Of a stretch of DNA of 38,710 nt, positions 13,645-38,498 are shown in pieces. Under the pieces are notes generated by a model. It saw nothing but the letters and a program-made list of their open reading frames with translations. It ran no database searches and was not told the origin of the DNA. Both the position numbers and the translations under genes were made by a program. This DNA comes from an uncultured Sulfurimonas sp. (GTDB taxonomy: Bacteria > Campylobacterota > Campylobacteria > Campylobacterales > Sulfurimonadaceae): NCBI GenBank assembly GCA_937900945.1, contig CALCGG010000002.1, positions 1-38,710 of the forward strand, written 5' to 3'. Numbering within the stretch: the stretch's first letter is position 1; each line of letters starts with the position of its first letter.

Positions 13645-15309
13645 ATGAAACTTCATTCATACGATATCAATAAAAAATACAGTACAAGCGTAGCATACTT
13701 TTCTATGGAATTTGCAATAGACCAAGCTCTTAAAATATACTCAGGCGGATTGGGGTTTCTAGCAGGTTCTCACATGAGAAGTGCTTATGATTTAAAGCAA
13801 AATGTTGTGGGTATAGGTCTTTTATGGAGTTTTGGTTACTATGACCAAGAACGAAATGAAGATCGTACACTTCAGCCACGCTACACAAGAAAATTTTACT
13901 ATTTTTTAGAAGAGCTTCCTGTAACAGTAAGTGTAAAGGTTGATGGTAAAGATGTACATGTAAAAGCTTTTTTACTTCGTGCTGAAGTATTTGGTACTGC
14001 TCCTATGATTTTACTCTCAACAGATACAGATGAAAATGACTATCTCTCAAGAACAATTACACATAAGCTTTATGACGGTAATCAAAAAACCCGCGTAGCC
14101 CAAGAAATGGTTTTAGGTATCGGCGGTGTTAAAGTTTTAGAGGCGATGAAACAAAATATTGAAATTTATCATATGAATGAAGGTCATTCGTTACCACTTG
14201 TTTATCAACTGTATAACCGTTATCAAGATATGGCGGAGTTGAAAAAACATGTTGTTTTTACAACGCATACTCCTGAAGCTGCCGGCAATGAAATCCATAA
14301 TATTCATTTTTTACATGAGATGGGATTTTTTAATGAGCTTGATTTAAATACGGTGAGAACTATTAGCGGCTATGAGCATGATGATAATTTCAGTTTAACA
14401 GTCGGTGCTCTTCGCAGCGCAAAAAGAGCTAATGCTGTTTCTAAGATACATGGAACAGTATCTAATGAGATGTGGGGAAAAGTTGAAAACAGATGCGAGA
14501 TTATCTCTATTACTAATGCTCAAAATAAAAAATACTGGACAGATAAAACACTTATCCGTGCCTTGGATGAGCATGAAGACTATGAACTTGTAGCTCGAAA
14601 AAAACACCTTAAAAAAATTCTTTTTGATGAGGTTGCAAATCAAACCGGAAAAATGTTTGATCCTGAGATTTTGACGATTGTATGGGCTAGACGATTTGCT
14701 GAGTATAAGCGTCCAGGATTACTGAAATATGATTTTGAAAGATTTATTAAATTGATAGAAAACAAGGAAATGCCGGTACAGATTATATGGGCTGGAAAAC
14801 CTTATCCTACTGATTTTGGTGCCATTGAAATATTTAACGAACTTATACACATAAGCCGTAGATATCCAAATATTGCCGTTATTGTCGGATATGAACTGAC
14901 TTTATCCAGACTTCTAAAACAAGGGAGCGACATTTGGCTCAATACACCAAGAATCACAAGAGAAGCAAGCGGGACAAGTGGTATGACTGCGAGCATGAAT
15001 GGTTCAATTCACTTTTCTATTGATGATGGATGGCATCCGGAGTTTGCAAGAGACGGTAAAAATTCTTTTACAATTCCTGCTCTTGATCATAATCTTAGTA
15101 TTGCAGAACAAGACAGAATTGATAATATAAATATGATGGATATTTTAGAAAATACCATTCTTCCAACATACTACAATGAACCGACAAAATGGGTGAAAAT
15201 AATGAAAAGTGCACTCTCTGATATAGAACATGAATTTGATTCAGCAAGAATGGTGGACCAATATTATGATCTTATGTTTAACTATAAGCCAAAAACAGAG
15301 GCGAAATAA
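13645..15309 (+). CDS. GT35 alpha-glucan phosphorylase-like protein lacking the PLP lysine
   Basis: This 554-residue protein belongs to the short glucan-phosphorylase branch (GT35). It has VAYFSMEFAIDQALKIYSGG at the N-terminus, YHMNEGHSLPL (near 175), TTHTPEAAGNE, and the phosphate-site loop WARRFAEYKRPG (near 350). Near the C-terminus phosphorylases read SGTSGMKAALNG, where the Lys carries pyridoxal phosphate. Here it is SGTSGMTASMNG: the codon at 14986-14988 is ACT, so residue 448 is Thr. Without that Lys the usual PLP Schiff base cannot form, although the Arg and Lys of the phosphate loop are kept. It may still act as a glucosyltransferase with another donor, bind PLP non-covalently, or have a regulatory or glucan-binding role. 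I cannot rule out that a whole subfamily carries Thr here. AAGGG lies 6 bases before ATG 13645; pgk begins directly at the stop codon. Confidence 0.88.
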   Translation: MKLHSYDINKKYSTSVAYFSMEFAIDQALKIYSGGLGFLAGSHMRSAYDLKQNVVGIGLLWSFGYYDQERNEDRTLQPRYTRKFYYFLEELPVTVSVKVDGKDVHVKAFLLRAEVFGTAPMILLSTDTDENDYLSRTITHKLYDGNQKTRVAQEMVLGIGGVKVLEAMKQNIEIYHMNEGHSLPLVYQLYNRYQDMAELKKHVVFTTHTPEAAGNEIHNIHFLHEMGFFNELDLNTVRTISGYEHDDNFSLTVGALRSAKRANAVSKIHGTVSNEMWGKVENRCEIISITNAQNKKYWTDKTLIRALDEHEDYELVARKKHLKKILFDEVANQTGKMFDPEILTIVWARRFAEYKRPGLLKYDFERFIKLIENKEMPVQIIWAGKPYPTDFGAIEIFNELIHISRRYPNIAVIVGYELTLSRLLKQGSDIWLNTPRITREASGTSGMTASMNGSIHFSIDDGWHPEFARDGKNSFTIPALDHNLSIAEQDRIDNINMMDILENTILPTYYNEPTKWVKIMKSALSDIEHEFDSARMVDQYYDLMFNYKPKTEAK

Positions 15310-16530
15310 ATGACTTCTAATATAAGTTATATGAGTGGAGTAAAAAGTCTTAAAGATATTGATATTGAAGGCAAAAAAGTATTAATTCGTGTTGACTTTA
15401 ACGTTCCCGTTGATTCTAATGGCAATATCTCAGATGATCGCCGTATCCGTTCTGCACTTCCGACTATCAACTACTGTATAGATCATAATGCATGTTCTAT
15501 AACTTTGGTATCACACTTTGGCAATCCAAAAGGCGGGTATGAGGAGAAATATTCTCTTAAGGGTGTTCGTAAACGATTAGAAAGACTTCTGAATAAAAAA
15601 GTTGAGTTTGTAGAGGATTTTGAAGCTTCTAAGGATGAAATTGCTGCATGCTCACTAGAGAGAGTTTTTTTACTTGAAAATATCCGTTTTCATGAAGGTG
15701 AGAAAAAAAATGATGAAGAGCTTTCAAAAAAACTGGCTTCGATATGTGATGTGTATGTAAATGATGCTTTCGGAACTTCTCATAGAGCACATGCTTCAAC
15801 ACATGGGATAACCAAATATGTACAAACAAAAGTAGCCGGTTTTTTAATGATGAAAGAGGTGGAAGCATTTTCTAAAGCCTTAGAAGAACCGGTTCGCCCA
15901 ATTGCTTTAGTGGTTGGCGGTGCTAAAATCTCTTCTAAAATCACTTTGTTGGAAGCTGTATTGCAAAAAGTGGATAAGCTTATAATCGGTGGAGCAATGA
16001 GCAACACATTTTTAAAAGCTTTAGGTTATGACATGATGGACTCCTTATATGAAAAAGAGTATGTTGAAACTGCCTCACATGTACTCACTCATGCCAGAGA
16101 AAATGGAGTAAAAGTTTATTTACCTGTGGATGTAGTGATTACTGACTCTATAGAAAAGCCTGTTGATGTTAAAGTTGTTCCGGCTCAAGATGTTTTAGAA
16201 GGTTTCAGGGCTGTTGATATCGGTCCTGCAACCGTAAAACTCTTCAGTGAAGCAATAGAGTTGTCAAATACTATTATCTGGAATGGTCCTATGGGAATTT
16301 ACGAGATTGATAAATTTTCAAAAGGTACTTTCAAAATAGCAGCTGCTATGGGTGATTGTTATGCTTATACTATCGTTGGCGGTGGTGATACTGCCGATGC
16401 TGTTGATAAATGTGGAGAATCTGAAAATTTTAGCTTTATATCTACGGGTGGTGGAGCATCCCTTGAACTTTTAGAAGGGAAAATATTGCCGGGCTTTGAA
16501 AATTTAGACCGTAAAGTTGAGGTGAATTAA
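15310..16530 (+). CDS. pgk: Phosphoglycerate kinase with one altered substrate residue
   Basis: PGK transfers phosphate between 1,3-bisphosphoglycerate and ADP. This 406-residue protein has the usual fold markers: VLIRVDFNVPVD, DDRRIRSALPTI, LLENIRFHEGEKKND, NDAFGTSHRAHAST, a nucleotide site with WNGPMGIYE, and GGGASLELLEGK. Most arginines of the 3-phosphoglycerate patch are present. The exception is SHFGNPKGG: the family motif is SHLGRPKG, and its Arg is Asn72 here (codon AAT at 15523). Loss of one patch Arg should weaken 3-PG binding unless it is compensated. The organism may have a second, standard PGK elsewhere. The start follows the upstream stop directly (TAAATG) with GAGGCG at 8 bases; a later in-frame ATG at 15340 is a weaker choice. 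The stop overlaps the pfk start by one base. Confidence 0.94.
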   Translation: MTSNISYMSGVKSLKDIDIEGKKVLIRVDFNVPVDSNGNISDDRRIRSALPTINYCIDHNACSITLVSHFGNPKGGYEEKYSLKGVRKRLERLLNKKVEFVEDFEASKDEIAACSLERVFLLENIRFHEGEKKNDEELSKKLASICDVYVNDAFGTSHRAHASTHGITKYVQTKVAGFLMMKEVEAFSKALEEPVRPIALVVGGAKISSKITLLEAVLQKVDKLIIGGAMSNTFLKALGYDMMDSLYEKEYVETASHVLTHARENGVKVYLPVDVVITDSIEKPVDVKVVPAQDVLEGFRAVDIGPATVKLFSEAIELSNTIIWNGPMGIYEIDKFSKGTFKIAAAMGDCYAYTIVGGGDTADAVDKCGESENFSFISTGGGASLELLEGKILPGFENLDRKVEVN

Positions 16531-17489
16531 TGGCATTGGCAATCATGTGCTCAGGCGGTGATGCGCCTGGGATGAATCCGGCAATAAAAAAGTTCGTTGA
16601 TTACAGTTACAAACTAGGACATGAGGCATATCTGATATATGACGGATTGGAAGGTTTAATAGACAATAGGATTAAAAAAGCAAGTCATCAGGATGTAGCT
16701 GGAATAGTTCATATTGGCGGAACGATTATCCGTTCATCTCGTTCAAAGCGCTTTTTTGAACATGAGTATCGTCTTAAAGCCTTTAATAATCTTAAATCTC
16801 ATGGTATACAGGGAGTTGTTGTTTTAGGTGGTGATGGTTCGTTTCGCGCTATGGAAAAGTTTAGTTCAGAATTTGATATCAATTTTGTTGGAATTCCAAC
16901 GACCATAGACAATGATATTTACGGAACAGAGTACTGCTTAGGCGTTGATACCGCACTCAATGTAATAAGAGATGCACTGGATAAGATTAGAGATACGGCA
17001 TCATCTTTTAATCGCGCTTTTATAGTAGAAGTTATGGGCAGAGACTGTGGTTACTTAGCTGTTGTCTCAGCTATGATCAGCGGAGCTGAAATTTGTATCA
17101 TTCCGGAAGTAGAGTTTAATACAGAAGAAGTTGAAAAAAGATTAGTTCAAGAGATTAAAGAAGGTAGAAATTATATTCTTGCTATAATATCTGAAGGTTC
17201 TAAAAACACATCAGAGGTTCATTCTTGGATACAAGAAAAGCTTGGACTTGAAACTAGGGTGAGTATCTTGGGACACATTCAAAGGGGTGGTAATCCAACT
17301 GTTTACGACCGCTTGATGGCTTTTGACTTTACTATTAAAGCCGTTGATTATTTACTTTCTCATAGTGATTCCAATAAAGTTGTAGTTTACCAAAAAGGTG
17401 AATTCAGTTTTATGGAGATAGAAGAAGTAGTATCGAACAAATATCAGTTACCACAGCATTATTTAGACGCAATAAATTATTTAGATTAA
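16530..17489 (+). CDS. pfkA: 6-phosphofructokinase, probably ATP-type
   Basis: PFK phosphorylates fructose-6-P to fructose-1,6-bisphosphate, the committing step of glycolysis. The protein has 319 residues, the same length class as E. coli PfkA. Motifs: CSGGDAPGMN (residues 7-16), VVVLGGDGSFRAM (Gly103, the ATP-type residue where PPi enzymes have Asp), GIPTTIDNDI with catalytic Asp127, VEVMGRDCGYLA and ILGHIQRGGNPTVYDR. Residue 124 is Thr; ATP enzymes normally have Gly and PPi enzymes Lys, so donor preference is not fully settled. PFK is absent from many Campylobacterota (Campylobacter and Helicobacter lack it), so its place in this operon points to real forward glycolysis, probably from stored glycogen. 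ATG 16530 overlaps the pgk stop by one base; the next gene follows after 28 bases. Confidence 0.95.
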   Translation: MALAIMCSGGDAPGMNPAIKKFVDYSYKLGHEAYLIYDGLEGLIDNRIKKASHQDVAGIVHIGGTIIRSSRSKRFFEHEYRLKAFNNLKSHGIQGVVVLGGDGSFRAMEKFSSEFDINFVGIPTTIDNDIYGTEYCLGVDTALNVIRDALDKIRDTASSFNRAFIVEVMGRDCGYLAVVSAMISGAEICIIPEVEFNTEEVEKRLVQEIKEGRNYILAIISEGSKNTSEVHSWIQEKLGLETRVSILGHIQRGGNPTVYDRLMAFDFTIKAVDYLLSHSDSNKVVVYQKGEFSFMEIEEVVSNKYQLPQHYLDAINYLD

Positions 17490-17517: not shown

Positions 17518-20019
17518 ATGAAAGCAGTAGTTATGGCAGGCGGGTTTGGAACTAGGATTCAACCACTTACACATTCAAGACCAAAGCCAATGTTGCCAAT
17601 TATAAATAAGCCTATGATGGAGCATACAATGATGATGCTCAAAGATTTGGGTATTACAGAGTTTATAGTTCTTTTGTACTTTAAACCTGAAATAATTCAA
17701 GATTATTTTAAAGATGGAAGTGAGTTTGGGATTAAAGTTAGTTACGTTGTCCCAGATGCTGACTATGGCACTGCCGGTGCTGTAAAATTGGCGCAAGAGT
17801 ACATCGGCGATGAAAATTTCATTATCGTTAGTGGAGATCTTGTGACAGACTTTGATTTTAAAAAGTTATTTGATTTTCATGCTGATAAAAAATCACAGTT
17901 ATCTATTGGTCTGACTTCTGTTGAAAATCCCCTGCAGTTTGGTGTTGTAATAGCAAACGAAGATAATGTAATCGAGAAATTTTTAGAAAAACCGAGCTGG
18001 GGTGAGGTCTTTAGCGATACTATAAACACTGGAATATATATAATTGAACCGGAAATTTTGGATTTTATCCCTAGGGGTGAGAATTTTGATTTTGCAAAAG
18101 ATCTGTTTCCCCTACTTATGAAAAAAGATATCGAATTGATGGGCTTAAACCTTAGCGGATACTGGCGAGATGTAGGTAATCCTGAAAGTTATAGAGAAGT
18201 TTTTGAAGATATCTTAAACGGCAAAGTGAAGCTGCATATATCCGGTAAGAAGAAAGAATATCCAGATGGAGTATTGTATTCTCATGGCAAAAATGAATTA
18301 GACCACTCTGTTGATATAATTGGCACAGTAATCTTAGGTGAAAATATAAAAATCGGCAAAAATACAAAACTAAACAATGTTGTCATCGGCAATAATGTTA
18401 CTATAGGAAGTTCTTGTAAGATAAGAAACAGTGTCTTATGGGAAGATATAGTCATTGAGAAAAATGTGCATTTAGATAATAGTGTGATTTGTAACAACAA
18501 TTTTATCGGTAAGAATGTAACTGCCAAAGCAGGTTTGATTTTAGCACAAGGCTGTGAAATAGGGCAGTTGGCTTCTTTTAATCAGGATGTTACAATTTGG
18601 CCGGACAAAAAAGTCGAACCGGCATCCATTATAAATCACAATCTTGTCTTAGGTAATAAATATAAAAATTCTATTTTTGAAAATGGAAGTGTTGCTGGTA
18701 AAAGTAACATAGAGTTGTCATGTGAAATGACTACTAAACTTGCAGAAGCATTCGCAGCTCAACTGCCTGTAGGCTCTACTGTTATAGTCGGTCGTGATCA
18801 TGACAAAAGCTCTCGTATGCTCAAGCGTGCATTTTTAGGCGGTTTACTCTCTGCCGGAATAAATGTCGTAGATATAAAAAGTGTGCCATCTTCAGTGCTT
18901 AGATATACGCTGGCAAATGATGATAATTTAGTGGGCGGAGCTCATTTTAAAAGATGTACCTCTGATACTACAGATTCTATAATTACATTATTTAATGAAG
19001 AGGCCATAAGAATTGATTCTAACTCGGCGAAAAGTGTTGAAAAATCATTTTTCACAGAAAAATTCCGTCGTGTTGATTTTACGCAGATCGGTACAATTCA
19101 TGAAACTACAAACCACATTGAATGTGTAAGCTATAAAGAAGCTATTGAGAATAACATTGATCATGGAATTATGAAGTGTGGAAATTTTAAAGTAGCGGTT
19201 GATTTAATGCATGGCGTTGTTGCTGACCTTTTTCCTCAAGTACTCAATCATTTGGGTGTTGAAAATATAGTCTTAAATTCCTACTATGATGAGAAAAAAT
19301 TATTCAATATATCAATGCTGGAGAAGAATGCTCATACAAATATATCTGCAATTGTAACAAGTTTAGAATATGACATGGGTTTGATTATATATCCAAATGC
19401 TCAGCAATTAAGCTTGGTAAGCGAAGACGGAGTAGTTCTAAATAAAATAATAGGCCTATACAGTGTACTTGAACTTTTAAACATTGATTCAAAAGATAGA
19501 AAAAAAAGAGTATTTTTACCTTCATGGGCACCGGATATAAAATATTTTGAAAATTTAGAAATCCAAAGAGGAAAATACTCTAATTTTAAAGCTTCACAAC
19601 TGAAGCAGTATGATCTTATTGCTACAGTAGACGGCAATTTTGCTTTTACAGAATTTGGATATACCCGTGATGCCATGTATGCGAGTTTAAAAATTATGGA
19701 GCTTTTAAGCTGTCATAATATAAAACTTTCCGAGCTTGCAAAAAGTATTGATGAGTTCTATTATAAAGCTTTTGAAATATCTTGTTCTCAAGCCCTAAAG
19801 GGAAAAATGATGAGAAAATTCCTTGAAGATTCAAAAGGTAAAAAGTCATCTTCAGCGGATGGTGTTAAGATTTGGGAAGATGAAAATGATTGGATTTTAA
19901 TGATTCCAGATCAGTATAGGGATAGTTTAAATATATATATTCAAGCAACAGATGAAAAGAATGGTGAAGCTATTTATGAAAAATATACATCTAAAATAGC
20001 CGTATGGTCACAAGAATAA
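17518..20019 (+). CDS. Sugar-phosphate nucleotidyltransferase fused to a degenerate phosphohexomutase
   Basis: The protein has 833 residues in three parts. Residues 1-235 form a nucleotidyltransferase domain (MKAVVMAGGFGTRIQPLT, RPKPMLPI, FIIVSGDLVTDFD, the metal loop near GYWRDVGNP), so it should make an NDP-sugar from sugar-1-P and NTP. Residues 255-370 form a left-handed beta-helix of hexapeptide repeats (IKIGKNTKLNNVVIGNNVTI). Residues 385-830 have the phosphohexomutase fold, but its sites are gone: where the catalytic Ser loop should be one finds GGAHFKRCTSDTTD (473-486), and where the metal motif DGDADR should be one finds YPNAQQ (625-630). Such fusions are usually annotated as mannose-1-P guanylyltransferase/phosphomannomutase. 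With two glycogen synthases and no GlgC nearby, this protein is a good candidate for the glucosyl-nucleotide supplier; the base it uses is unknown. GGGAG precedes ATG 17518. Confidence 0.88.
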   Translation: MKAVVMAGGFGTRIQPLTHSRPKPMLPIINKPMMEHTMMMLKDLGITEFIVLLYFKPEIIQDYFKDGSEFGIKVSYVVPDADYGTAGAVKLAQEYIGDENFIIVSGDLVTDFDFKKLFDFHADKKSQLSIGLTSVENPLQFGVVIANEDNVIEKFLEKPSWGEVFSDTINTGIYIIEPEILDFIPRGENFDFAKDLFPLLMKKDIELMGLNLSGYWRDVGNPESYREVFEDILNGKVKLHISGKKKEYPDGVLYSHGKNELDHSVDIIGTVILGENIKIGKNTKLNNVVIGNNVTIGSSCKIRNSVLWEDIVIEKNVHLDNSVICNNNFIGKNVTAKAGLILAQGCEIGQLASFNQDVTIWPDKKVEPASIINHNLVLGNKYKNSIFENGSVAGKSNIELSCEMTTKLAEAFAAQLPVGSTVIVGRDHDKSSRMLKRAFLGGLLSAGINVVDIKSVPSSVLRYTLANDDNLVGGAHFKRCTSDTTDSIITLFNEEAIRIDSNSAKSVEKSFFTEKFRRVDFTQIGTIHETTNHIECVSYKEAIENNIDHGIMKCGNFKVAVDLMHGVVADLFPQVLNHLGVENIVLNSYYDEKKLFNISMLEKNAHTNISAIVTSLEYDMGLIIYPNAQQLSLVSEDGVVLNKIIGLYSVLELLNIDSKDRKKRVFLPSWAPDIKYFENLEIQRGKYSNFKASQLKQYDLIATVDGNFAFTEFGYTRDAMYASLKIMELLSCHNIKLSELAKSIDEFYYKAFEISCSQALKGKMMRKFLEDSKGKKSSSADGVKIWEDENDWILMIPDQYRDSLNIYIQATDEKNGEAIYEKYTSKIAVWSQE

Positions 20020-20028: not shown

Positions 20029-22050
20029 TTGAAACTTAGTTTTATATGGCATATGCATCAGCCTGATTATCGTGATGTAAGCGGAATAATGCAAATGCCT
20101 TGGGTATTTTTGCATGCTATAAAAGATTATTATGATATGCCTTGGATGTTGGCGAGACATGAAACACTCAAAGCAACCTTTAATATAACAGCACCTCTTA
20201 TCCAGCAGCTAAAGCTCTATTATAACCATCCAGAGGAGTCAGATAAATTTTTGGCTCTGTGGCTGAGAAATCCGTCAACCTTAGAAGAAGATGAACGTAA
20301 GTGGATTATAAAGCTTTGTAAAAGTACTCAGTATGAGACTATGGCAAAACCATTTGAGCGCTATGTTGAACTTTATGCGCAGGAACATTTTAACAATACA
20401 GAGCTTATGGATTTGGAAGTTTTGTTTATCTTATCTTGGTGTGGTGTTTATTTACGCAATAACAGTCAGATTATAAAAGATTTGATAGAACAGAAAAAAA
20501 ATTATAGCTATGAAGATAAAACTTTGCTTTTAAATGAGTTGTCAAATTTTGTATCCGGTATATTTGAGTATTATGCAAAACTTCAAAAAGACGGTATTAT
20601 AACTATTTCGACAACTCCATTAAACCATCCTATTTTACCACTTCTTATGGATATGCAAAACGCTACCAGAGCAAATATAAATACACACATGCCAAAAGAG
20701 TATGAAAAACTCGAGGATGATGCTCTTTTGCAAGTACTAAGAGCAAAAGATCTTTTTATAGATACTTTTGGTTTTGAACCTGATGGTTTTTGGCCTGCGG
20801 AAGGTGCAGTTGATGAGAGTAGTGTGAAGCTTCTCCAGTCGTGCGGGATAAAGTGGATAGCAACAGATGAAGAAATATTATTTAAGTCTTTAAAAACGAA
20901 TAATAGAGATGCTCTTTACACCCCTTATAACTATGATGGCATGTGTATCGGATTTAGAGATCATTATTTAAGTGATTTGATAGGTTTTACCTATAGGCAT
21001 CAAGATTCCTATAGTGCATCGAAACATTTCATTGGAGAATTGTCAAAAATCCAGCATGTAAATCCAGACGCTACAGTTTTTGTAATTTTGGACGGTGAAA
21101 ATGCCTGGGAATTCTTCAAAAATAACGGTTTTGATTTTTTCAATGCCCTCTATAGCGATTTTAGATCTTGTTCATGGTGTCAAACTGTACACATGGATGA
21201 TGTTTTAAAGCTGCCTTCCAAAGAACTTACGTACATAGCGCCTGGAAGTTGGATACATGGCTCGTTTAATACTTGGGTAGGTCACAGTGAAAAAACAAGA
21301 GCTTGGGAGTTGATATTTCTTACAAAAAGAGACTACGAGCACCATTCAGATACAGTGGATGAACATATAAAATCAAAAATAGTGGATCATTTTTTAGCAG
21401 CTGAGTGTTCTGACTGGTTCTGGTGGTATGGTGATGATCATTACACAGAATTCGGAGCTGAATTTGATGAGTTGTTTCGTTCGCATTTGATTAATATTTA
21501 TGATCTTATCGGGATAACCCCTCCGGCTGACTTATTTGTACCAATCATCAAAAATAAAAGCGCAGAAAGCTTTTGGCTTAAACCTCAGTCGGATATATCT
21601 CCGTCCATTAATGGGCATCATGACTCATTTTTTGAATGGATTGGCTGTGGCGTAGTGGATGAGACTAAACTTTTTTCAACCATGGATAAGCAAAGAGGTC
21701 CAATAAAAAAGATATATTATGGTCAGGATAACGAAAAACTCTATTTTGCATTTGAGGGCAAAATCAAAAAGATGTGTTTAAGTGATTCTTTGACTGTTAT
21801 CATTGATCCTATTGATGTAAGAGGAACAATCCCCTTTGGGGCAAATGAAACTTTTATTGACAATTTAAAAGTGAGCGTAGCCTGCGGTGATTGGTTTGAG
21901 ATTTGCATTGACAGAAGTAAAATTTTCAATGATGAGATATCTATAAGATTTGAACTTGAAAAAGATGGAAAAGTAATTCAGACTCTTCCCGGCTTTGGTG
22001 AACTTAAAATAGATTTAGGTGATGATTACAGCCATAATTGGTTTGTGTAG
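20029..22050 (+). CDS. GH57 glycoside hydrolase (amylase/amylopullulanase-like)
   Basis: This 673-residue cytoplasmic protein (no signal peptide) has the GH57 catalytic barrel. Conserved regions: HMHQP at residues 8-12, FWPAEGAVD with the nucleophile Glu258, and ILDGENAWE with the acid/base Asp355. The C-terminal 150 residues (from about 520) form a beta-rich part resembling the accessory domain of GH57 alpha-amylases and amylopullulanases. It should hydrolyse alpha-1,4 (perhaps also alpha-1,6) links in glycogen or maltodextrin. The start is TTG at 20029: AAGGAG (20018-20023) sits 5 bases before it, and the residues MKLSFIWHMHQP fit the family start, so the rare start codon is well supported. 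It follows the nucleotidyltransferase by 9 bases. The next gene is another GH57 enzyme of a different type. Confidence 0.92.
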   Translation: MKLSFIWHMHQPDYRDVSGIMQMPWVFLHAIKDYYDMPWMLARHETLKATFNITAPLIQQLKLYYNHPEESDKFLALWLRNPSTLEEDERKWIIKLCKSTQYETMAKPFERYVELYAQEHFNNTELMDLEVLFILSWCGVYLRNNSQIIKDLIEQKKNYSYEDKTLLLNELSNFVSGIFEYYAKLQKDGIITISTTPLNHPILPLLMDMQNATRANINTHMPKEYEKLEDDALLQVLRAKDLFIDTFGFEPDGFWPAEGAVDESSVKLLQSCGIKWIATDEEILFKSLKTNNRDALYTPYNYDGMCIGFRDHYLSDLIGFTYRHQDSYSASKHFIGELSKIQHVNPDATVFVILDGENAWEFFKNNGFDFFNALYSDFRSCSWCQTVHMDDVLKLPSKELTYIAPGSWIHGSFNTWVGHSEKTRAWELIFLTKRDYEHHSDTVDEHIKSKIVDHFLAAECSDWFWWYGDDHYTEFGAEFDELFRSHLINIYDLIGITPPADLFVPIIKNKSAESFWLKPQSDISPSINGHHDSFFEWIGCGVVDETKLFSTMDKQRGPIKKIYYGQDNEKLYFAFEGKIKKMCLSDSLTVIIDPIDVRGTIPFGANETFIDNLKVSVACGDWFEICIDRSKIFNDEISIRFELEKDGKVIQTLPGFGELKIDLGDDYSHNWFV

Positions 22051-22061
22051 AGGAAAATAGA

Positions 22062-24104
22062 ATGAAAAAAGTATCTTTACTGTTTGGTGTTCACATGCAT
22101 CAACCGGTTGACAATTTTGGTGAATCAGTGGATGAAGCTATAGAATTATGCTATAAGCCATTTTTTGAGACAATGATTAAGTATCCTGATTTTAAATTTG
22201 CTGTTCATTGCAGCGGATGGTTGCTTGATAAAATTAGAGTAGAACATTCTGATACATTTGAAAATATGAAATCATTAACAAAAAATGGTTCTATCGAGTG
22301 GATTGGAGCGGGTTATTATGAACCGGTTTTAAGTGCTATCCCCTCAACGGACCGTCGTGCTCAAATTAAAAAACTAAGCTCTTATTTACATAAATATTTT
22401 GGTGTAAAACCAAAAGGTTTATGGCTGACAGAAAGGGTTTGGGAATCGGCTTTGATCCCTGACTTGGCAGCATCTGGAATTGACTATACGGTTGTTGATG
22501 ATTATCACTTTTTAAGCAGCGGATATGATGCTTCAAAGATGGATGGCTTTTATACTACAGAGGAAAACGGTGCGGATTTGTCTCTCTTTCCTATTGCCAA
22601 GTCACTTCGATATGCATTGCCCTTCTATAGTGTTAAAAGAGCAGTTGATTCTATTTTAGCATGTTCTCAAAATGAAAATTCAGCAGCTATAATCTTTGAT
22701 GATGCAGAAAAGTTTGGTCTTTGGCCTCAGACTCATGCTTGGGTTTATGAAAAAAAATGGCTTGAAGGTTTTGTTGAAGCAGTTTTAGCAAATGAAAGGA
22801 TTAAGACAGAGCATTACAGTTCCTATATGAAAAATAACCGTTCACTGGGAATCGCTTACCTGAACAATACATCTTATTTTGAGATGGGAGAGTGGAGTCT
22901 TAAAAGCAGACAAACCATAGCTCTTGAAGAGTTAAAGCAAAAAATGGGTGATGATTATTTTAATGATGTCGGAGTCTCATTTATAAAAGGCGGGATTTGG
23001 AAAAACTTTTTTATAAAATACCATGAGAGCAACTATCTTCATAAAAGAATGCTGCATCATAGTTTACAGCAGGACTCTTTAGATAAAAACTCACTTGAGT
23101 CGCTCTATAAGCTTCAAACAAATGATGTTTTCTGGCATGGCGTTTTCGGTGGGTTGTATCTTCCAAATCTTCGCGATAATGCTTATAAGTATTTGCTTGA
23201 AATTGAAAAATCAAAAGCTAAAAAAGAAACAAGTTTTGAAGTTTTAGATATAGATAAAGATGGCTTTGATGAACTTAAAGTTTTAACCCAAAATCTCAGC
23301 CTTGTTTTTTCAACAAAGTTTGGCGGACAGATGGTGGAATTTGGTTCACTAGATACTCTTTTTAATTGGCAAAACACTCTCATGAGAAGAGAAGAAGCTT
23401 ACCATGACAAAATACTTCATCCAAAAGAGAGTGACCATGTGCATAAAGAGACTAAAGATGAGATAGCTACAATTCATAATGAGTCTTTAGTTATAGATGA
23501 AGCCCTAAAGGCTGAACTGATTTATGACTGGCATCCAAAAAATTCATTTATAGACCATTTTAGTGACGAAGAGTTTACGCAAGAGAATTTTAAAAGTTTA
23601 ACATTTAAAGAGGTTGGTGATTTTGCAAATCAGCCTTTTGAATTAAATAAGAAGAAAAATATATTTCTCAGAAATGGTGGAATATTTTTGGATAATGCAT
23701 ATAGAAATTATGCAACTACTTTAGAGAAAGAGTATACATTTTCTGCGAACTCAATCACTTTAGATACAAAATGTAAAAGCGAATATGAGGAAAAACTCTT
23801 TTTTGCTCAGGAGTTTAATTTTCACTTTGCACATCCGGATAAGGTGACATTTAACTCTAAAAACTTAAGCAATGGTTTTAGCCAACATGGCACAGACGAA
23901 CTTTTAATCATAGATGATTTTACAAATAAGACTTTAAAAATTAAAGTGAATCAGAAATGTAGTATTTTTGCTTTTATTTTAAATACAATTTCTCAAAGTG
24001 AGAGCGGTTTTGATAGAGTGGCACAGGGGGTAAGTTTTATATTTACAACCCCATTCGAATCAAAACTGAAATTAAAATTTTCTTTGGAGTTAGCAGATGT
24101 CTGA
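22062..24104 (+). CDS. GH57 4-alpha-glucanotransferase-like enzyme
   Basis: The protein has 680 residues with no signal peptide. The N-terminus reads VSLLFGVHMHQPVDNFGES, as in the 4-alpha-glucanotransferase branch of GH57. The nucleophile Glu124 lies in GLWLTERVWE and the acid/base Asp in IIFDDAEKFGLWP (Asp213/Asp214). From memory, these positions match Glu123 and Asp214 of the Thermococcus litoralis glucanotransferase closely. The C-terminal half (about 390-680) is a beta-sandwich of the kind found in that branch. Likely role: moving glucan segments between chains so that maltodextrins left by breakdown can be re-used, a MalQ-like function. ATG 22062 has AGAGGAA 7 bases upstream; the longer frame from TTG 22038 lies in the previous gene. 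The end overlaps the GalT-like gene by 8 bases, which implies coupled translation. Confidence 0.92.
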   Translation: MKKVSLLFGVHMHQPVDNFGESVDEAIELCYKPFFETMIKYPDFKFAVHCSGWLLDKIRVEHSDTFENMKSLTKNGSIEWIGAGYYEPVLSAIPSTDRRAQIKKLSSYLHKYFGVKPKGLWLTERVWESALIPDLAASGIDYTVVDDYHFLSSGYDASKMDGFYTTEENGADLSLFPIAKSLRYALPFYSVKRAVDSILACSQNENSAAIIFDDAEKFGLWPQTHAWVYEKKWLEGFVEAVLANERIKTEHYSSYMKNNRSLGIAYLNNTSYFEMGEWSLKSRQTIALEELKQKMGDDYFNDVGVSFIKGGIWKNFFIKYHESNYLHKRMLHHSLQQDSLDKNSLESLYKLQTNDVFWHGVFGGLYLPNLRDNAYKYLLEIEKSKAKKETSFEVLDIDKDGFDELKVLTQNLSLVFSTKFGGQMVEFGSLDTLFNWQNTLMRREEAYHDKILHPKESDHVHKETKDEIATIHNESLVIDEALKAELIYDWHPKNSFIDHFSDEEFTQENFKSLTFKEVGDFANQPFELNKKKNIFLRNGGIFLDNAYRNYATTLEKEYTFSANSITLDTKCKSEYEEKLFFAQEFNFHFAHPDKVTFNSKNLSNGFSQHGTDELLIIDDFTNKTLKIKVNQKCSIFAFILNTISQSESGFDRVAQGVSFIFTTPFESKLKLKFSLELADV

Positions 24105-25110
24105 GATAAGATTAGACCGTGTTCATAACCAGTATGTACTCATAGCACCGGAGAGACTGCATCGCCCAAGTTTAGGACACCATCATGTTAAAAATCTTTC
24201 AAGTGCCAAATGTCCGTTTTGTGAGGGAAATGAGGAGTTAACACCTCATGAAGTCTTTGCTATAAGAGATAATGAGCCAAATGCACAATCTTGGAAAACA
24301 AGAGTCATTCCAAATCTTTACAAAGCTGTTCAAATTGAGCTTGAGGATACATCTAAAAGAGACGGGATGTTTGAATCTATACCCGGCGTCGGCGCACATG
24401 AGATACTGATAGACTCACCGTTACATGATAGTAATTTAGTTGATCTTGGAAAAGAGGGTATTGAAAATTGGCTTAGAAGTATGATTATCCGTATTGAAGA
24501 TTTGAGCAAAGATAAGAGATTGATTCATCTAAGTATATTTAAAAACTATGGACAGAATGCCGGTTCAACTCAAGATCATCCTCATACGCAATTATTGGCT
24601 CTGCCTGTTATGCCTCAGAATGAGTTGGTCTTTTTAGAAAGAAATATGAAGTACTATCGCCGTCATGGGCGGGGAATAGTTGAGGATGTCGTTTATAACG
24701 AAAAAATTGCTAAAGAGAGATTGCTTTATGAAATTGGTGAGTTTATAGCTTATTGTCCATTTGCAAGTGCTTTTCCTTTTGAAGTTATGATAGCACCAAG
24801 AAGAAGTATCCCTAGTTTAAATATGTGCAGCAGAAAAGAGATTGGCGATCTGGCTCTTATAATTAAAGAAGTCTTCGGGATGTTAGAATCTCAACTGGGC
24901 TCTTTTGATTACAACCTATATTTTCACTTAGCGCCAATAAATTATAATTTTGAAAATGAAGAGTATATGAAACATATAGATAGGTGTTACAGCTTTAGTG
25001 TAAGGATAACTCCCCGTATATTTCGTTTAGGCGGTTTTGAAGTTTCTACGGGAATGGCTATAAATAGTGTAGTTCCCGAAGAGTGTGCTAAATTATTACG
25101 AGGAGATTGA
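24097..25110 (+). CDS. GalT-like nucleotidyltransferase (HIT superfamily)
   Basis: The 337 residues resemble galactose-1-phosphate uridylyltransferase. A zinc pair CPFC is at residues 39-42, followed by EGNEELTPHEVFAIR; the active-site triad HPHTQ has His161 and nucleophile His163; PFEVMIAPRRSIPSL lies near 230. Classical GalT swaps UMP between UDP-glucose and galactose-1-P, but there is no galK, galE or galM nearby. Plant homologues of this fold are ADP-glucose phosphorylases (ADP-glucose plus Pi), and their motif HPHSQ is closer to the HPHTQ here than to the HPHGQ of GalT. In a glycogen operon, a role in making or recycling ADP- or UDP-glucose is the best inference. The ATG at 24097 overlaps the previous gene by 8 bases, and its product ends just before glgA1. 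Confidence 0.88.
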   Translation: MSEIRLDRVHNQYVLIAPERLHRPSLGHHHVKNLSSAKCPFCEGNEELTPHEVFAIRDNEPNAQSWKTRVIPNLYKAVQIELEDTSKRDGMFESIPGVGAHEILIDSPLHDSNLVDLGKEGIENWLRSMIIRIEDLSKDKRLIHLSIFKNYGQNAGSTQDHPHTQLLALPVMPQNELVFLERNMKYYRRHGRGIVEDVVYNEKIAKERLLYEIGEFIAYCPFASAFPFEVMIAPRRSIPSLNMCSRKEIGDLALIIKEVFGMLESQLGSFDYNLYFHLAPINYNFENEEYMKHIDRCYSFSVRITPRIFRLGGFEVSTGMAINSVVPEECAKLLRGD

Positions 25111-25114
25111 TAGC

Positions 25115-26506
25115 ATGAAAGTGCTTTTTGCATCAAGTGAGATATATCCATTTGCTAAAACCGGCGGTTTGGCAGATGTAGCTGATGCTCTTCCCTATGC
25201 CTTAACAAGCCTTGTTGATATTTCAAGGGTAATGCCATTTTATGGCTTTATGAAGAAGAAAGATTTTAAATTTCATGATAATTTTACTATTACAATTGAT
25301 AGAATTGATTATAACATAGAGATTTTCACTAAAACAACAGATGCTTTAATAACATATTTTGTGAAGGCTCCTCTTCTTAGCACCACGGAAAACCTTTATG
25401 GTGATAAAGGGATTGATTATTTAAATAATGACTTGCGTTTTGGCTTATTTTGTAAAGCAATTGTGAAGCTTAGTGCTAGACTTGGGATTGAAGTTTTACA
25501 CCTTAATGATTGGCACACGGCTTTGAGTGCACTTTTTATAAAAGAGTCAAATTTAAATATAAAAACAATTTTTACAATTCATAATCTTGCATATCAGGGA
25601 GTATTTGATAAAAGTTCACTTAAGAGATTGTCTATTAATAAAAAATATTATCATATGGATGGTTTAGAATTTTATACAAATGTGAATTTTTTAAAAGCAG
25701 GGATAGCGTATAGTGACCATGTGACTACGGTAAGTCCAGCGTATGCCAAAGAGATTTTAACTAAAGAATTTGGATGCGGTTTGGATGGTTTTTTAATACA
25801 TCATAAGAAGAAGTTGAGCGGAATTTTAAACGGAATAAATTATGATGTTTTTAACCCTTCAACTGACAAGGCGCTTGAGTTCACCTACGATAAAGACAGC
25901 TTTGAAAACAAATATAAAAATAAACTCTCTTTCATAAAACAGTCAACACTCAAAGACCCGAGAACTCCGCTGTTTGTCATGATTACCCGTTTAGTGGAAC
26001 AAAAGGGCGTTGATTTATTAATGGAATCCATTGAAGATTTATTGGTAAAGAAAGTGAATCTTTTTGTTTTAGGCGAGGGTCCTGCCAAGATTTGCAAGAA
26101 ACTAAACATACTCTCAAAAAAATATGATAATTTTGAGTTTTTTGAGGGGTATAATGATACTGTGTCACATCAGACTTATGCAGTAGCAGACTTTTTGCTT
26201 ATGCCTTCAGTGTTTGAACCATGCGGATTAAACCAGTTTATAGCTATGCGCTATGGAGCTGTTCCTATCGTTCATGCAGTCGGCGGCTTAATAGACAGCG
26301 TATATGAAGATAGTATGCTTTGTGGAGCCGGTCTAGTTTTTGAGAATCAAACTAAAGAAGAATTTCTTTTTGCAATAGAGAGAGCTCTCGAACTTAAAAA
26401 GAACAGTAAAAAGTTTAAGTCAGTTATGAAGTTTAACATGGAATGTGATTTCTCTTTTGCAAAGAGTGCCTTAGAATATTTAAAATTGTATAAGAGTTTA
26501 TCATGA
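25115..26506 (+). CDS. glgA: Glycogen synthase, GT5 (first of two paralogs)
   Basis: GlgA adds glucose from an NDP-glucose to the non-reducing ends of glycogen. The protein has 463 residues. The N-terminal GT5 domain begins MKVLFASSEIYPFAKTGGLAD with Lys15-Thr-Gly-Gly, the nucleotide-sugar diphosphate loop. Further on are VLHLNDWHTALSALF, IFTIHNLAYQGVF, and in the C-terminal domain TRLVEQKGVDLL and SVFEPCGLNQFIAMRYG, with the conserved Glu and the Arg/Lys pair. It is complete but diverged from the second copy: the stretch after KTGGLADVADALPYAL is ISRVMPFYGFMKKK rather than IIVVMPRYYKIDK. The two may differ in donor (ADP- versus UDP-glucose) or in priming. The start is ATG 25115 with AGGAG 9 bases upstream, not an upstream frame inside the GalT-like gene. 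The stop overlaps the ROK kinase start (ATGA). Confidence 0.93.
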   Translation: MKVLFASSEIYPFAKTGGLADVADALPYALTSLVDISRVMPFYGFMKKKDFKFHDNFTITIDRIDYNIEIFTKTTDALITYFVKAPLLSTTENLYGDKGIDYLNNDLRFGLFCKAIVKLSARLGIEVLHLNDWHTALSALFIKESNLNIKTIFTIHNLAYQGVFDKSSLKRLSINKKYYHMDGLEFYTNVNFLKAGIAYSDHVTTVSPAYAKEILTKEFGCGLDGFLIHHKKKLSGILNGINYDVFNPSTDKALEFTYDKDSFENKYKNKLSFIKQSTLKDPRTPLFVMITRLVEQKGVDLLMESIEDLLVKKVNLFVLGEGPAKICKKLNILSKKYDNFEFFEGYNDTVSHQTYAVADFLLMPSVFEPCGLNQFIAMRYGAVPIVHAVGGLIDSVYEDSMLCGAGLVFENQTKEEFLFAIERALELKKNSKKFKSVMKFNMECDFSFAKSALEYLKLYKSLS

Positions 26507-27345
26507 CTCTTGGTTTAGACGCTGGGGGAACCTACTTACGTTATGAGTTGCGTAATCAAAATAAAATAATAAAAGCTTCGTCTGTAAAAAGTTCAGAAAT
26601 AGGGCTGAGTCAGTATATAGAAAATATTTTGTCATTTGAGAAAAATATAAAAAATATTTGTATCTCTTTTGCCGGACAGGTTAAAGATGGTGTTATTTCC
26701 TCTTCTCCAAATATTGTTGTAGACAGGCATAATATAAAAGAATATTTTGAACTCAAGTATGATGTAAACTTTTTTATAGAAAATGATTTAAACTGCGCTG
26801 TTTTGGCAGAGGCTAAAGCGCATAAAAGTGACAACATCTGTGCCTTGTATATTGGAACCGGCTTGGGTCTGGGAGTTTTAAGTTCTTCTACACTTATAGA
26901 GGGCGCTAACAGTGTTGCTGCAGAACTTGGGCATATTCCGTATAAAGAAACGCCTTTCGCATGTGGCTGCGGTAAAAGCAACTGCATAGAATTATTTGCT
27001 TCGGGTACTGCACTGAAGATGTGGAAAAGTTACTATGATGTTGATGAGTCTTTAACACTCAAAGAGCTTAAAAACAGTAGCAATAAAAATGAAAATAAAA
27101 TTTATGAAGAGTTTGAAAAAGCTTTACTGTATGCAGCTGGAACTGCCATAACACTCTTTAATCCGGAATTTTTGGTATTGGGTGGCGGTATTATGATGAG
27201 TAACAGTGATCTGTGTGATACAGTGATTTCCAAAATGCAGGATTACGCTATGCCGATAGCTCTGCAAAAGCTTAAAATACAAAATACAAAAATACAAAAT
27301 GCGTCATTAGAAGGTGCATTTTTACTGAAGGATTATCATGCTTAA
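26503..27345 (+). CDS. ROK-family sugar kinase, probably glucokinase
   Basis: This 280-residue ROK protein lacks the DNA-binding domain of ROK repressors, so it is an enzyme. It starts with the phosphate loop LGLDAGGTYLRY (Asp6), has the sugar-site FIENDLNCAVLAEA, the glycine loop YIGTGLGLGVL, and the ROK zinc site: GH followed by CGCGKSNCIE (His and three Cys, near residues 145-165). The C-terminal nucleotide loop is NPEFLVLGGGI. Glucose freed by the GH57 enzymes would need such a kinase to enter glycolysis as glucose-6-P, so glucokinase is the likely role; substrate choice cannot be read from the sequence. The ATG overlaps the glgA1 stop by 4 bases, and its end overlaps the glgA2 start by 8 bases, so the three products are probably made in fixed ratio. 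Confidence 0.9.
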   Translation: MTLGLDAGGTYLRYELRNQNKIIKASSVKSSEIGLSQYIENILSFEKNIKNICISFAGQVKDGVISSSPNIVVDRHNIKEYFELKYDVNFFIENDLNCAVLAEAKAHKSDNICALYIGTGLGLGVLSSSTLIEGANSVAAELGHIPYKETPFACGCGKSNCIELFASGTALKMWKSYYDVDESLTLKELKNSSNKNENKIYEEFEKALLYAAGTAITLFNPEFLVLGGGIMMSNSDLCDTVISKMQDYAMPIALQKLKIQNTKIQNASLEGAFLLKDYHA

Positions 27346-28810
27346 AAATAAGTTAAAGATTTTATTTGCGGCTGCTGAAGTTGTGCCGTTTGCAAAAACA
27401 GGCGGACTTGCCGATGTTGCGGGAGCTCTTCCAAAAGCGCTGAAAGAGCTAGGACATGACATCATTGTTGTGATGCCGAGATATTACAAAATTGATAAGT
27501 CAAAACTTACCAAACTACCTGCTCCGTTGGGAGTTCCGATGGGAGTAATGGGTGAGCTTTGGGCGGCAGTTTATACTACAACTCTGCCTCAAAGTGATGT
27601 GCCGATTTACTTTATAGACTATGAAGAGTATTTTGGAAGACATGGACTTTATGAAGATGAAAATGACGGATATCACGATAACGATAATCGCTTTATATTT
27701 TTCTCAAAAGCAGCGTTGCAGCTTTGTAAAATGTTGCAGTTTACACCTGATATCATCCATGCAAATGACTGGCATACGGCTGCAATGCCGCTTCTTAGCA
27801 GAACCAGATTTGTTCATGACTTTGCACATACTGCGTCAGTTTTAACTATTCATAATTTACAACATCAAGGAAACTTTTTTAAAGGCATTATGGATGTTAT
27901 GGAAGTTGGTTGGGGACATTTTAATTCGCATGAGTTTGAGGATTTTGACAGAGTAAACCTTTTAAAAGGGGCAATTGAACAAGCTGATGCCGTAACAACT
28001 GTTTCAAAAAAATATGCACAGGAAATCCAAACTGAAGAATTTGGATTTGGACTTGAGAAGCATATACAAGCACATGCAAAAAAGCTCTTTGGTATTTTAA
28101 ACGGAGTGGATTATAACGAGTGGAATCCATCACTGGATAATGCTTTGGCTAAAAAATATGATTTGGATGACATGTCAGGCAAGTTGGAGTGTAAAAGAGA
28201 TATTCAAAAACATTTTAACTTAGAAGTTCGTGATGATGTAGCACTCATAGGCTTTGTGGGGCGTTTTGCTGAGCAAAAAGGGATAGGATTGATTGCCGGC
28301 GTCATCAACGGTATTTTAGATTTGGATGTTCAAATCGTTATGCTCGGAGCCGGTGAAAAATGGGCAGAGGGATTTTTTAGCGATGTAGCGCATCATAGAG
28401 CAAATTTTGGTTTACATGTAGGTTATTCTGATGCACTGGCTCATAAAATAGAAGCTGGAAGCGACATGTTCCTAATGCCGTCTATATTTGAACCTTGCGG
28501 ATTAAACCAGATATACAGCCTTCGTTATGGAACTTTGCCGATTGTAAGAGCAGCTGGCGGACTTGACGACACAATCATTAATTTTGATGAAAATCATAAA
28601 AACGGAAATGGATTTAAATTTTATGAAGCATCACAAGATGCGCTTTATAATACAGTTTTATGGGCTGTAGATATATATAACAATGACAAAACAGAATTTA
28701 AGATTATGCAAAAGACAGCCATGAAAGAGCATTTTAGCTGGATAGATTCGGCAAAAGGCTATGAGGCAGTGTACGAATATGCTTTGAGTAAAAAACGCGT
28801 ATCAAAATAA
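27338..28810 (+). CDS. glgA: Glycogen synthase, GT5 (second paralog)
   Basis: A second complete GlgA of 490 residues, closer to the standard bacterial form. It shows ILFAAAEVVPFAKTGGLADVAG (Lys20 in the donor loop), HANDWHTAAMP, LTIHNLQHQGNF, TTVSKKYAQEIQ, FVGRFAEQKGIG and SIFEPCGLNQIYSLRYG. The order and length match ADP-glucose-type GlgA of about 480 residues. It differs from the first copy across the whole protein, so this is an old duplication or separate acquisition, not a recent repeat. The start lies inside the ROK kinase gene with 8 bases of overlap. The branching enzyme follows after 10 bases with AAAGGAAAAACG before its ATG. Two synthases in one operon are unusual; one may extend and the other prime, or each may use its own donor. 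Confidence 0.95.
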   Translation: MLKNKLKILFAAAEVVPFAKTGGLADVAGALPKALKELGHDIIVVMPRYYKIDKSKLTKLPAPLGVPMGVMGELWAAVYTTTLPQSDVPIYFIDYEEYFGRHGLYEDENDGYHDNDNRFIFFSKAALQLCKMLQFTPDIIHANDWHTAAMPLLSRTRFVHDFAHTASVLTIHNLQHQGNFFKGIMDVMEVGWGHFNSHEFEDFDRVNLLKGAIEQADAVTTVSKKYAQEIQTEEFGFGLEKHIQAHAKKLFGILNGVDYNEWNPSLDNALAKKYDLDDMSGKLECKRDIQKHFNLEVRDDVALIGFVGRFAEQKGIGLIAGVINGILDLDVQIVMLGAGEKWAEGFFSDVAHHRANFGLHVGYSDALAHKIEAGSDMFLMPSIFEPCGLNQIYSLRYGTLPIVRAAGGLDDTIINFDENHKNGNGFKFYEASQDALYNTVLWAVDIYNNDKTEFKIMQKTAMKEHFSWIDSAKGYEAVYEYALSKKRVSK

Positions 28811-36856: not shown

Positions 36857-36875
36857 AAGCTGTTTAAAACAGCTT
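36857..36875 (-). terminator. Hairpin over the phosphoglucomutase stop codon
   Basis: AAGCTGTTT and AAACAGCTT face each other with one base between; a realistic stem is AAGCTGT/ACAGCTT. It includes the last codons and the stop of the gene, followed on the minus strand by AT-rich DNA with a short T-run. It is a probable transcript end. Confidence 0.5.
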
Positions 36876-38498
36876 ACTCACCATGTCTTGTGCTTCATCT
36901 TGAATCAGTTTAAGATGAGCCTCATCTATAAAACTCTCCGCGTAAATTTTGTAAATTGCTTCTGTTCCAGATGGACGAAGTGCAAACCATCCATTTTTTG
37001 CTACAACTTTAAGCCCGCCGATTGGAGCGTTATTTCCAGAGGCATTGGTTAAAATGGCTTCTATCGGTTCGCCTGCAAGCATAGTTTCTTTTACATTTTG
37101 GGGAGAGAGTTTTTTCAGAATAGTTCTTTGCGTGGCATCAGCCGGTGCATCTATGCGGGCATAGATCGGTGCGCCAAATTTTTGTGTCAATTCTTTGTAA
37201 TGTTCACCCGGGTCTCTCCCTGTAGTTGCCAAAATCTCAGCTGAGAGCAGGGTCATAATTATTCCGTCTTTGTCTGTACTCCAGACAGTTCCGTCTTTGC
37301 GTAAAAAACTCGCACCCGCACTCTCTTCACCGCCAAAGAATATTTTACCTTCCATCAGACCATCGACAAACCATTTGAAACCAACCGGTACTTCGATAAC
37401 TTTTTTGTTTAAAGAGTTGGCTACGCGGTCTATCATGGAACTGCTTACCAAGGTTTTACCAATTCCAAGATTCTCACTCCACTGTGGACGGTTTTGTGCC
37501 AAGTAGTTTATGGCAACACTCAGATAATGATTTGGATCCATCAGCCCGACACTTTTAGTCACTATCCCATGGCGGTCAAAGTCAGTATCATTTCCAAAGG
37601 CGATATCATACTTGTCTTTCATGGTGATGAGTCCAGCCATGGCATAAGCAGAGGAACAATCCATACGGATTTTTCCATCTTTGTCACAGTGCATAAAAGA
37701 GAAAGTCGAGTCAAGCGTATCATTGAATACTTCCATGTTAAGCTTGTATTTCTCTTTAATAGCACTATAGTAAGCCAAACCGGCGCCGCCCATAGCATCT
37801 GCACCTATGAAAATACCGGACTTGGCAATAGCCTCCATATCAAGAACATTTTGTAAATCTTCAACATAAGGAGTGACATAATCGTACTGTTTGATATTTT
37901 CAGCTTTTAATGCTTGGGCAAGAGTGAGTTTTTTTACATCTGCAAGATTATTTTTCATAATCTCATTGGCTCTGTTTTGAATCCAATCTGTTATATCCGT
38001 ATCAGCCGGTCCGCCATGTGGAGGGTTGTATTTAAATCCGCCATCTGTTGGAGGATTGTGTGATGGAGTGATAATGATACCATCGCATTGTGAAGAGCTG
38101 TTTTTGTTATGTGTCAAGATAGCATGTGAGATAACAGGAGTAGGCGTATAACCAAAATCTTTGGCTATATACACATTTACACCATTCGCACTCAGAACTT
38201 GCAAGGCTGTCAGTTGTGCCGGATAGGAAAGGGCATGTGTATCCATCCCCATAAATAGATAACCGTCCAGATTGGCTTGCTTGCGATAATCACAAACAGC
38301 TTGAGTCACTGCAAAAATATGTGTTTCATTGAAACTTGTTAGCAGCGAGGAACCTCTGTGACCAGAAGTTCCAAAGCTGACTTTTTGATTCTCAAAAGCA
38401 GTATCGGGAAATTTCGTATAATAAGCACTGATTAACTCAGGTACATTAATTAGTGTAGATTTCGGTGCCAGTTTTCCAGCGTTTTTATGTGTACTCAT
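36864..38498 (-). CDS. pgm: Phosphoglucomutase (alpha-D-glucose type)
   Basis: Pgm interconverts glucose-1-P and glucose-6-P, the link between glycogen and glycolysis. The 544-residue length is that of the E. coli Pgm type. It has FGTSGHRGS (42-50), ITPSHNPPTDGG with the phospho-carrier Ser146, the metal loop GNDTDFDRHG (Asp304, Asp306, Asp308), the sugar loop GGEESAGASF, and the phosphate loop ALRPSGTEAIYK. All active-site residues are present, in contrast to the degenerate mutase domain of the fusion at 17518. AAGG lies 7 bases before ATG 38498. It stands outside the large glycogen operon, on the other strand 6 kb away, but serves the same pathway. Confidence 0.96.
   Translation of the reverse strand: MSTHKNAGKLAPKSTLINVPELISAYYTKFPDTAFENQKVSFGTSGHRGSSLLTSFNETHIFAVTQAVCDYRKQANLDGYLFMGMDTHALSYPAQLTALQVLSANGVNVYIAKDFGYTPTPVISHAILTHNKNSSSQCDGIIITPSHNPPTDGGFKYNPPHGGPADTDITDWIQNRANEIMKNNLADVKKLTLAQALKAENIKQYDYVTPYVEDLQNVLDMEAIAKSGIFIGADAMGGAGLAYYSAIKEKYKLNMEVFNDTLDSTFSFMHCDKDGKIRMDCSSAYAMAGLITMKDKYDIAFGNDTDFDRHGIVTKSVGLMDPNHYLSVAINYLAQNRPQWSENLGIGKTLVSSSMIDRVANSLNKKVIEVPVGFKWFVDGLMEGKIFFGGEESAGASFLRKDGTVWSTDKDGIIMTLLSAEILATTGRDPGEHYKELTQKFGAPIYARIDAPADATQRTILKKLSPQNVKETMLAGEPIEAILTNASGNNAPIGGLKVVAKNGWFALRPSGTEAIYKIYAESFIDEAHLKLIQDEAQDMVSKLF

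Follow-up and report, generated by a model that had tools for sequence, protein, structure and literature searches.

A nucleotidyltransferase fused to a dead phosphohexomutase as a probable GlgC stand-in for glycogen synthesis in Campylobacterota

Our analysis of a 38,710-nucleotide stretch of DNA from an uncultured Sulfurimonas sp. (GCA_937900945.1, contig CALCGG010000002.1; hereafter the window) points to an 833-residue fusion protein as the probable glycogen glucose-1-phosphate nucleotidylyltransferase of Campylobacterota, a stand-in for GlgC that carries an ancient, probably regulatory or structural pseudo-mutase and would most likely make ADP-glucose. The window encodes a cluster for glycolysis and glycogen metabolism, inside which the fusion gene lies (Table 1).

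Table 1. Features of the fusion gene and of its surroundings in the window
Feature	Position	Strand	Details and basis
alpha-glucan phosphorylase, GlgP-like	13645..15309	+	TIGR02094 over cut-off; synteny
6-phosphofructokinase-like gene, directly upstream of the fusion	16530..17489	+	ORF, synteny; family from inspection of the sequence
fusion gene	17518..20019	+	833 aa, ATG start; nucleotidyltransferase, left-handed beta-helix, pseudo-phosphohexomutase; ORF and homologues
nucleotidyltransferase domain	17521..18216	+	Pfam PF00483 1e-55, alignment; AGGFGTRIQPLT..PKPMLP, SGD (107), FLEKP (155-159), WRDVG (216-220) intact
left-handed beta-helix, hexapeptide, EIF2B-epsilon type	18274..18627	+	residues 253-370; PF25084 2e-21; strands in full-length model
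pseudo-phosphohexomutase half	18667..20016	+	residues 384-833; AlphaFold2 pLDDT 89.9; Foldseek and VIA matches to alpha-phosphohexomutases; active-site loops lost
former phospho-Ser loop (TASHNP in active enzymes)	18934..18996	+	now GGAHFKRCTSDTTDSIITLFN, residues 473-493
F516-R517-R518, conserved	19063..19071	+	R517-R518 common to actinobacterial fusions
former metal loop (DGDxDR)	19375..19410	+	now MGLIIYPNAQQL, residues 620-631
RVFLPSWAPD, family-conserved	19507..19536	+	residues 664-673
former sugar-binding loop (GEESGH)	19618..19677	+	now IATVDGNFAFTEFGYTRDAM, residues 701-720
K761-G-K-M-M-R766	19798..19815	+	K-G-x-x-M-R common to actinobacterial fusions; absent from active mutases compared
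former phosphate-binding loop (RxSxTEP)	19891..19920	+	now WILMIPDQYR, residues 792-801
GH57 enzyme, next gene after the fusion in cluster-type loci	20029..22050	+	PF03065; synteny
GH57 alpha-amylase/4-alpha-glucanotransferase-like	22038..24104	+	PF09095, PF03065
GalT-like protein	24097..25110	+	closest solved relative Arabidopsis At5g18200, 1z84, E 6e-48
glycogen synthase GlgA, copy 1	25085..26506	+	TIGR02095 489 bits
ROK-family sugar kinase	26503..27345	+	PF00480
glycogen synthase GlgA, copy 2	27338..28810	+	TIGR02095 535 bits
glycogen branching enzyme GlgB	28821..30743	+	TIGR01515
intact phosphoglucomutase Pgm	36864..38498	-	TIGR01132 856 bits, cut-off 778; TPSHNP, DTDFDR, GGEES, RPSGTE present

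The N-terminal domain belongs to the NTP_transferase family of Pfam (residues 2-233; 189 bits against a curated cut-off of 21.2) and is followed by an LbH_EIF2B match at residues 253-350. The GxGTR..PKP signature, the region of the catalytic Asp and the EKP motif are all present and nearly invariant among homologues, and this domain looks like a working sugar-activating enzyme. With GlgC it shares a presumed pathway role and the combination of a nucleotidyltransferase with a beta-helix; however, GlgC has no 450-residue pseudo-mutase, and the N-terminal half falls far below the GlgC equivalog model TIGR02091 (121 bits against a cut-off of 424.9). The top NCBIfam model for the protein is the Rv3264c-type mannose-1-phosphate guanylyltransferase, NF052502, at 236 bits and below the cut-off of 440.

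The C-terminal half is dead as a mutase and complete as a four-domain fold. Pfam detects PGM_PMM_I (387-517, 5e-14) and PGM_PMM_II (539-638, 2e-9) above their curated cut-offs, while PGM_PMM_III scores under its own and mutase domain IV goes undetected by Pfam in the 833-residue protein. An AlphaFold2 model of this half, built with 27 sequences, finds its best PDB match in the archaeal phosphoglucomutase 9du5 (Z 38.9 over 437 residues, rmsd 2.8), and Foldseek matches it to the alpha-phosphohexomutases with an E-value of 1e-31; by its four-domain fold it is thus a member of the alpha-D-phosphohexomutase superfamily. The full-length model (pLDDT 78, pTM 0.72) is weak in its N-terminal half, and contacts between the halves were not taken from it. 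An initial sequence-only reading of the window had described a mutase half that keeps its length and fold and has lost the phospho-Ser loop and the DGDADR metal motif. Both observations hold up, the first by the model and its match to 9du5, the second in that T-x-S-H-N-P is replaced by GGAHFKRCTSDTTD at 473-486 and D-x-D-x-D-R by YPNAQQ at 625-630. That reading was silent on the two other catalytic loops, which are likewise lost: in the sugar loop (loop III) GEESGH has given way to VDGNFAFTEF, and in the phosphate loop (loop IV) RASGTEP has given way to MIPDQYR. None of the four canonical motifs (for the latter two, G-E-x-S-G and R-x-S-x-T-E) occurs in any of 62 near-full-length homologues from Campylobacterota, with identities down to 46%. 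Beyond this phylum, four actinobacterial fusions from a plasmid collection, 27-31% identical to the protein in alignments that cover 99% of it, are all dead at the same four loops, with different substitutions.

Across the 62 homologues the dead half evolves faster than the catalytic domain and is yet clearly constrained (mean entropy 1.43 against 0.75 bits). Its best-conserved stretches are F516-R518, V665-D673, K761-R766 and the phosphate-loop region W792-P797, and R517-R518 together with K-G-x-x-M-R (761-766) are common to both phyla and absent from the active mutases compared. The former sugar loop is conserved somewhat above the average C-terminal window; the Ser and metal loops do not exceed that average, and about 10% of random window sets are as conserved as the four loops combined. 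The search for a conserved pocket that the sequence-only reading had proposed thus gave a mixed result: the four stretches and, to a lesser degree, the sugar loop stand out in conservation, but the Ser and metal loops do not. A substrate pocket kept at the old catalytic loops is unsupported; a ligand site may exist, though one that does not merely coincide with the former active centre. The unremarkable conservation of the old Ser and metal loops counts against our preferred reading. A role of the pseudo-mutase as a sugar-phosphate sensor would be plausible, although the most conserved residues differ from the old Ser and metal loops.

We infer the nucleotide (ATP), the ligand and the allostery of the following scheme. 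The N-terminal domain would perform nucleotidyl transfer, with the beta-helix linking it to the C-terminal alpha-phosphohexomutase fold, whose four catalytic loops would all have been lost before the campylobacterotal copies parted from the actinobacterial ones. Through the four best-conserved stretches the dead half would bind a metabolite or a partner and relay a signal to the nucleotidyltransferase, confining glycogen synthesis to times of ample hexose phosphate. A more specific form of this scheme, in which the pseudo-mutase senses a hexose phosphate or bisphosphate at a re-made site and so controls the first committed step of glycogen synthesis in a non-GlgC enzyme, and in which the wider family mis-annotated as "bifunctional" shares this sensor, we advance tentatively and with less than even confidence. 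Somewhat unlikely, and still the strongest of the competing explanations, is that the dead half has a structural role or one in assembly, as a domain which sets the oligomeric state or docks to glycogen or to other enzymes of the cluster and binds no small ligand. The retained fold and the merely average conservation of the Ser and metal loops would agree with such a role, the conserved hydrophobic and aromatic stretches VFLPxWAPD and WILMIPDQY would suit an interface, and two genomes encode a stand-alone dead half lacking the nucleotidyltransferase; however, the invariant charged residues K761, R766, R518 and D718, common to Actinomycetota, resemble a site for a ligand or phosphate more than they do an interface. 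In either case the dead half probably contributes to the sugar-activation step of glycogen synthesis, by regulation or as a structural element.

The assignment to this step comes from genomic context, about which the sequence-only reading said nothing, as it did not touch on the cluster, on the perfect match in occurrence between fusion and GlgA, on the lack of GlgC or on the dead half in Actinomycetota. Besides the genes of Table 1, the cluster includes phosphoglycerate kinase; it contains no glgC. In cluster-type loci the fusion is followed by the GH57 gene wherever downstream sequence is available, and the fusion gene of Sulfurovum-type clusters is directly preceded by that of an intact Pgm. 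The cluster of the window has two glycogen synthases, and genomes of several other families have a single one.

An even sample of 200 genomes from Campylobacterota contains the fusion in 27, spread over 14 genera and 8 families, and GlgA (TIGR02095) in exactly the same 27. A canonical GlgC scoring over its cut-off was found in none of the 200. GalU is encoded by 196 of them, so that the fusion is dispensable for the general supply of UDP-glucose, and this supply does not account for its link with GlgA. The 79 near-complete genomes of the organism's own family repeat this agreement without exception, 46 having both fusion and GlgA and 33 having neither; when all 101 genomes of the family are taken, there are four mismatches, each in a genome that is 72-83% complete. 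The probability of such agreement by chance would be 5e-34 (200 genomes) and 5e-23 (79 genomes) if the genomes were independent, which they are not. The pattern of presence and absence also flips within the genus itself. These identical sets, together with the cluster, link the fusion genomically to glycogen synthase. The genome from which the window comes encodes GalU, MurU, GlmU and a CBS-linked enzyme as its other nucleotidyltransferases, none of which is a further candidate for the glycogen pyrophosphorylase. The CBS-domain protein (L003:1477-2520, contig C25) adjoins genes for a UDP-GlcNAc 2-epimerase-like and an oxidoreductase-like protein, which suggests a cluster of the nonulosonic-acid type. 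In two genomes we observed nucleotidyltransferases of about 390 residues (G264:C19:8647-9675 and G281:C159:8457-9485) with GlgC scores equal to those of the fusions and below the cut-off; the fusion is also present in both.

The probable product is ADP-glucose, as indicated by the similarity of the GalT-like neighbor to ADP-glucose phosphorylase and by the GlgAs being of the ADP-glucose type described by TIGR02095. The GalT-like protein matches Arabidopsis At5g18200 (Table 1) far better than E. coli GalT (3e-17), and At5g18200 phosphorolyses ADP-glucose (PMC11066809), a reaction by which the bacterial protein could recycle this sugar nucleotide. Among the 200 genomes its gene accompanies the fusion in 26 of 27 cases and occurs once without it. 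By homology it would be labeled a galactose-1-phosphate uridylyltransferase, and it tracks glycogen synthase in Campylobacterota. Specificity for ATP is indicated with no more than moderate strength, because the sequence of the N-terminal half is most like that of mannose-1-phosphate guanylyltransferases; this proximity to their models, and the distance from GlgC, count against our preferred reading. The enzyme might accordingly be viewed as a GDP-mannose or GDP-glucose pyrophosphorylase serving a mannose- or glucose-containing polymer, in which case its annotation as a mannose-1-phosphate guanylyltransferase would be right and its position in the glycogen cluster secondary. Such a function is favored by the Rv3264c-type model being the best curated one and by the listing of the Streptomyces coelicolor fusion SCO1388 as a GDP-mannose candidate (PMC5982138). 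We consider it improbable in view of the exact co-occurrence with GlgA in two samples, the lack of GlgC throughout and the ADP-glucose-phosphorylase-like neighbor. Moreover, although SCO1388 was described as apparently bifunctional, a disrupted SCO1388 brought no phage resistance, the sign of GDP-mannose loss that was looked for, and the activity was assigned to SCO3039 and SCO4238 (PMC5982138).

Strong purifying selection acts on the dead half, which is therefore in use. In close pairs (dS below about 1.1) its dN/dS is 0.04-0.08, much like the 0.04-0.05 of the N-terminal half, with values up to about 0.14 in more distant pairs in which dS is saturating. The comparison of non-silent with silent change, which the sequence-only reading had named as a check on its view that the half was retained for some 450 residues, thus sustains that view and excludes relaxed selection or decay. 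In a tree of mutase halves the dead ones form one clade apart from the active mutases (support 100/99), which is good but not final evidence for a single origin, as the outgroup consists of four active mutases, two of them long-branched. Trees of the N- and C-terminal halves recover the same main groups, implying that the halves mostly travelled together. By end-to-end homology and the monophyly of its mutase half, the protein belongs to a fusion family that Campylobacterota share with Actinomycetota, and the alignments indicate that loss of the active site is old and family-wide rather than a local decay. A complete fold under strong purifying selection might also be expected if the C-terminal half retained phosphotransfer or mutase activity through a new active site; this we regard as very improbable, given that no member has kept any of the four catalytic loops, the phospho-Ser and the three metal aspartates having gone with them, and that the genome has an intact Pgm, whose separate presence the sequence-only reading had correctly pointed out. 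The thought that loss of the active site marks the decay of a once bifunctional mutase-nucleotidyltransferase, whose leftover half is passively carried along, is for practical purposes refuted by the dN/dS of close pairs, by a reading frame that is open in nearly all of some 70 homologues and by a dead half older than the split between the family's campylobacterotal and actinobacterial branches. The dead half is better framed as an ancient pseudo-mutase fused to a probable NDP-glucose pyrophosphorylase for glycogen. We observed one in-frame stop within the matched stretch in each of two fusion genes (G042:C80:2043-4544 and G132:C1:957797-960310), and these could be sequencing errors or mark pseudogenes.

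Known proteins resemble the fusion in different respects. The actinobacterial fusions of the SCO1388 type, annotated as bifunctional guanylyltransferase/phosphomannomutase (GMP/PMM), have the same domain order and length; the four compared share the dead loops and K-G-x-x-M-R and, unlike the gene in the window, lie outside glycogen clusters, SCO1388 itself being likened by its description only. The closest relatives of the C-terminal half in fold and sequence are archaeal phosphoglucomutases/phosphomannomutases (9du5, 2f7l, 1wqa), whose four catalytic loops are those replaced here. By sequence, GMPPA/GMPPB and the Rv3264c type are the nearest family to the N-terminal half and its beta-helix. 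A working principle similar to that proposed here operates in GMPPA, an inactive protein that regulates its active pyrophosphorylase partner, but its dead part is itself a nucleotidyltransferase, whereas the fusion carries a dead mutase fold within one chain. PGM5, a vertebrate relative of phosphoglucomutase, is a non-catalytic member of the superfamily that keeps much of the active site; it has been solved with glucose-1-phosphate bound (6y8y), a precedent for ligand binding without turnover, though it is eukaryotic and unfused. A CDD family for nucleotidyltransferase-mutase fusions exists, as does a cyanobacterial member. The literature searched yielded no paper on this fusion in Campylobacterota or giving it a role in glycogen synthesis; vent-specific glycogen gene clusters have been reported in Epsilonproteobacteria, in a text that does not name the fusion gene (PMC3958643). 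The architecture was already known from SCO1388; its probable use as a GlgC substitute with a pseudo-mutase is new. It offers a candidate for a missing step, the supply of a sugar donor without GlgC in glycogen-making Campylobacterota, including chemolithoautotrophs of sulfidic habitats. In both phyla examined the mutase active site is missing from this type of fusion, which is often taken to be bifunctional; annotations to that effect, and metabolic models built on them, are therefore wrong. If our interpretation is true, a pseudo-mutase on a flux-controlling enzyme would provide a clear and testable example of a regulator derived from a dead enzyme.

The fusion family also extends beyond glycogen clusters. 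Some genomes, including that of the window, have a second fusion gene outside the cluster, which counts against our preferred reading in being unexplained by glycogen alone. These second genes fall within one of the two main groups of the tree and keep both the nucleotidyltransferase motifs and the dead loops. The copy in the same genome as the window is complete and 64% identical (L002, contig C203, 885-3389, minus strand); its product is possibly a hetero-subunit or has a second specificity, and its relatives adjoin hydrogenase-like (L064) or other unrelated genes (L065). The stand-alone dead mutase domains (L076:3864-5354 and L077:4226-5617) occur in genomes that also have a full fusion, and tblastn found no nucleotidyltransferase remnant upstream of either. 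A scan of genome contigs with the protein returned matches from Campylobacterota only, and a profile scan of viral contigs with the cross-phylum alignment of the C-terminal half gave no match. One fusion gene is borne on a plasmid, pSULKU01 of Sulfuricurvum kujiense (L091:12001-14538), where it is followed by genes for a patatin-like phospholipase and RND efflux.
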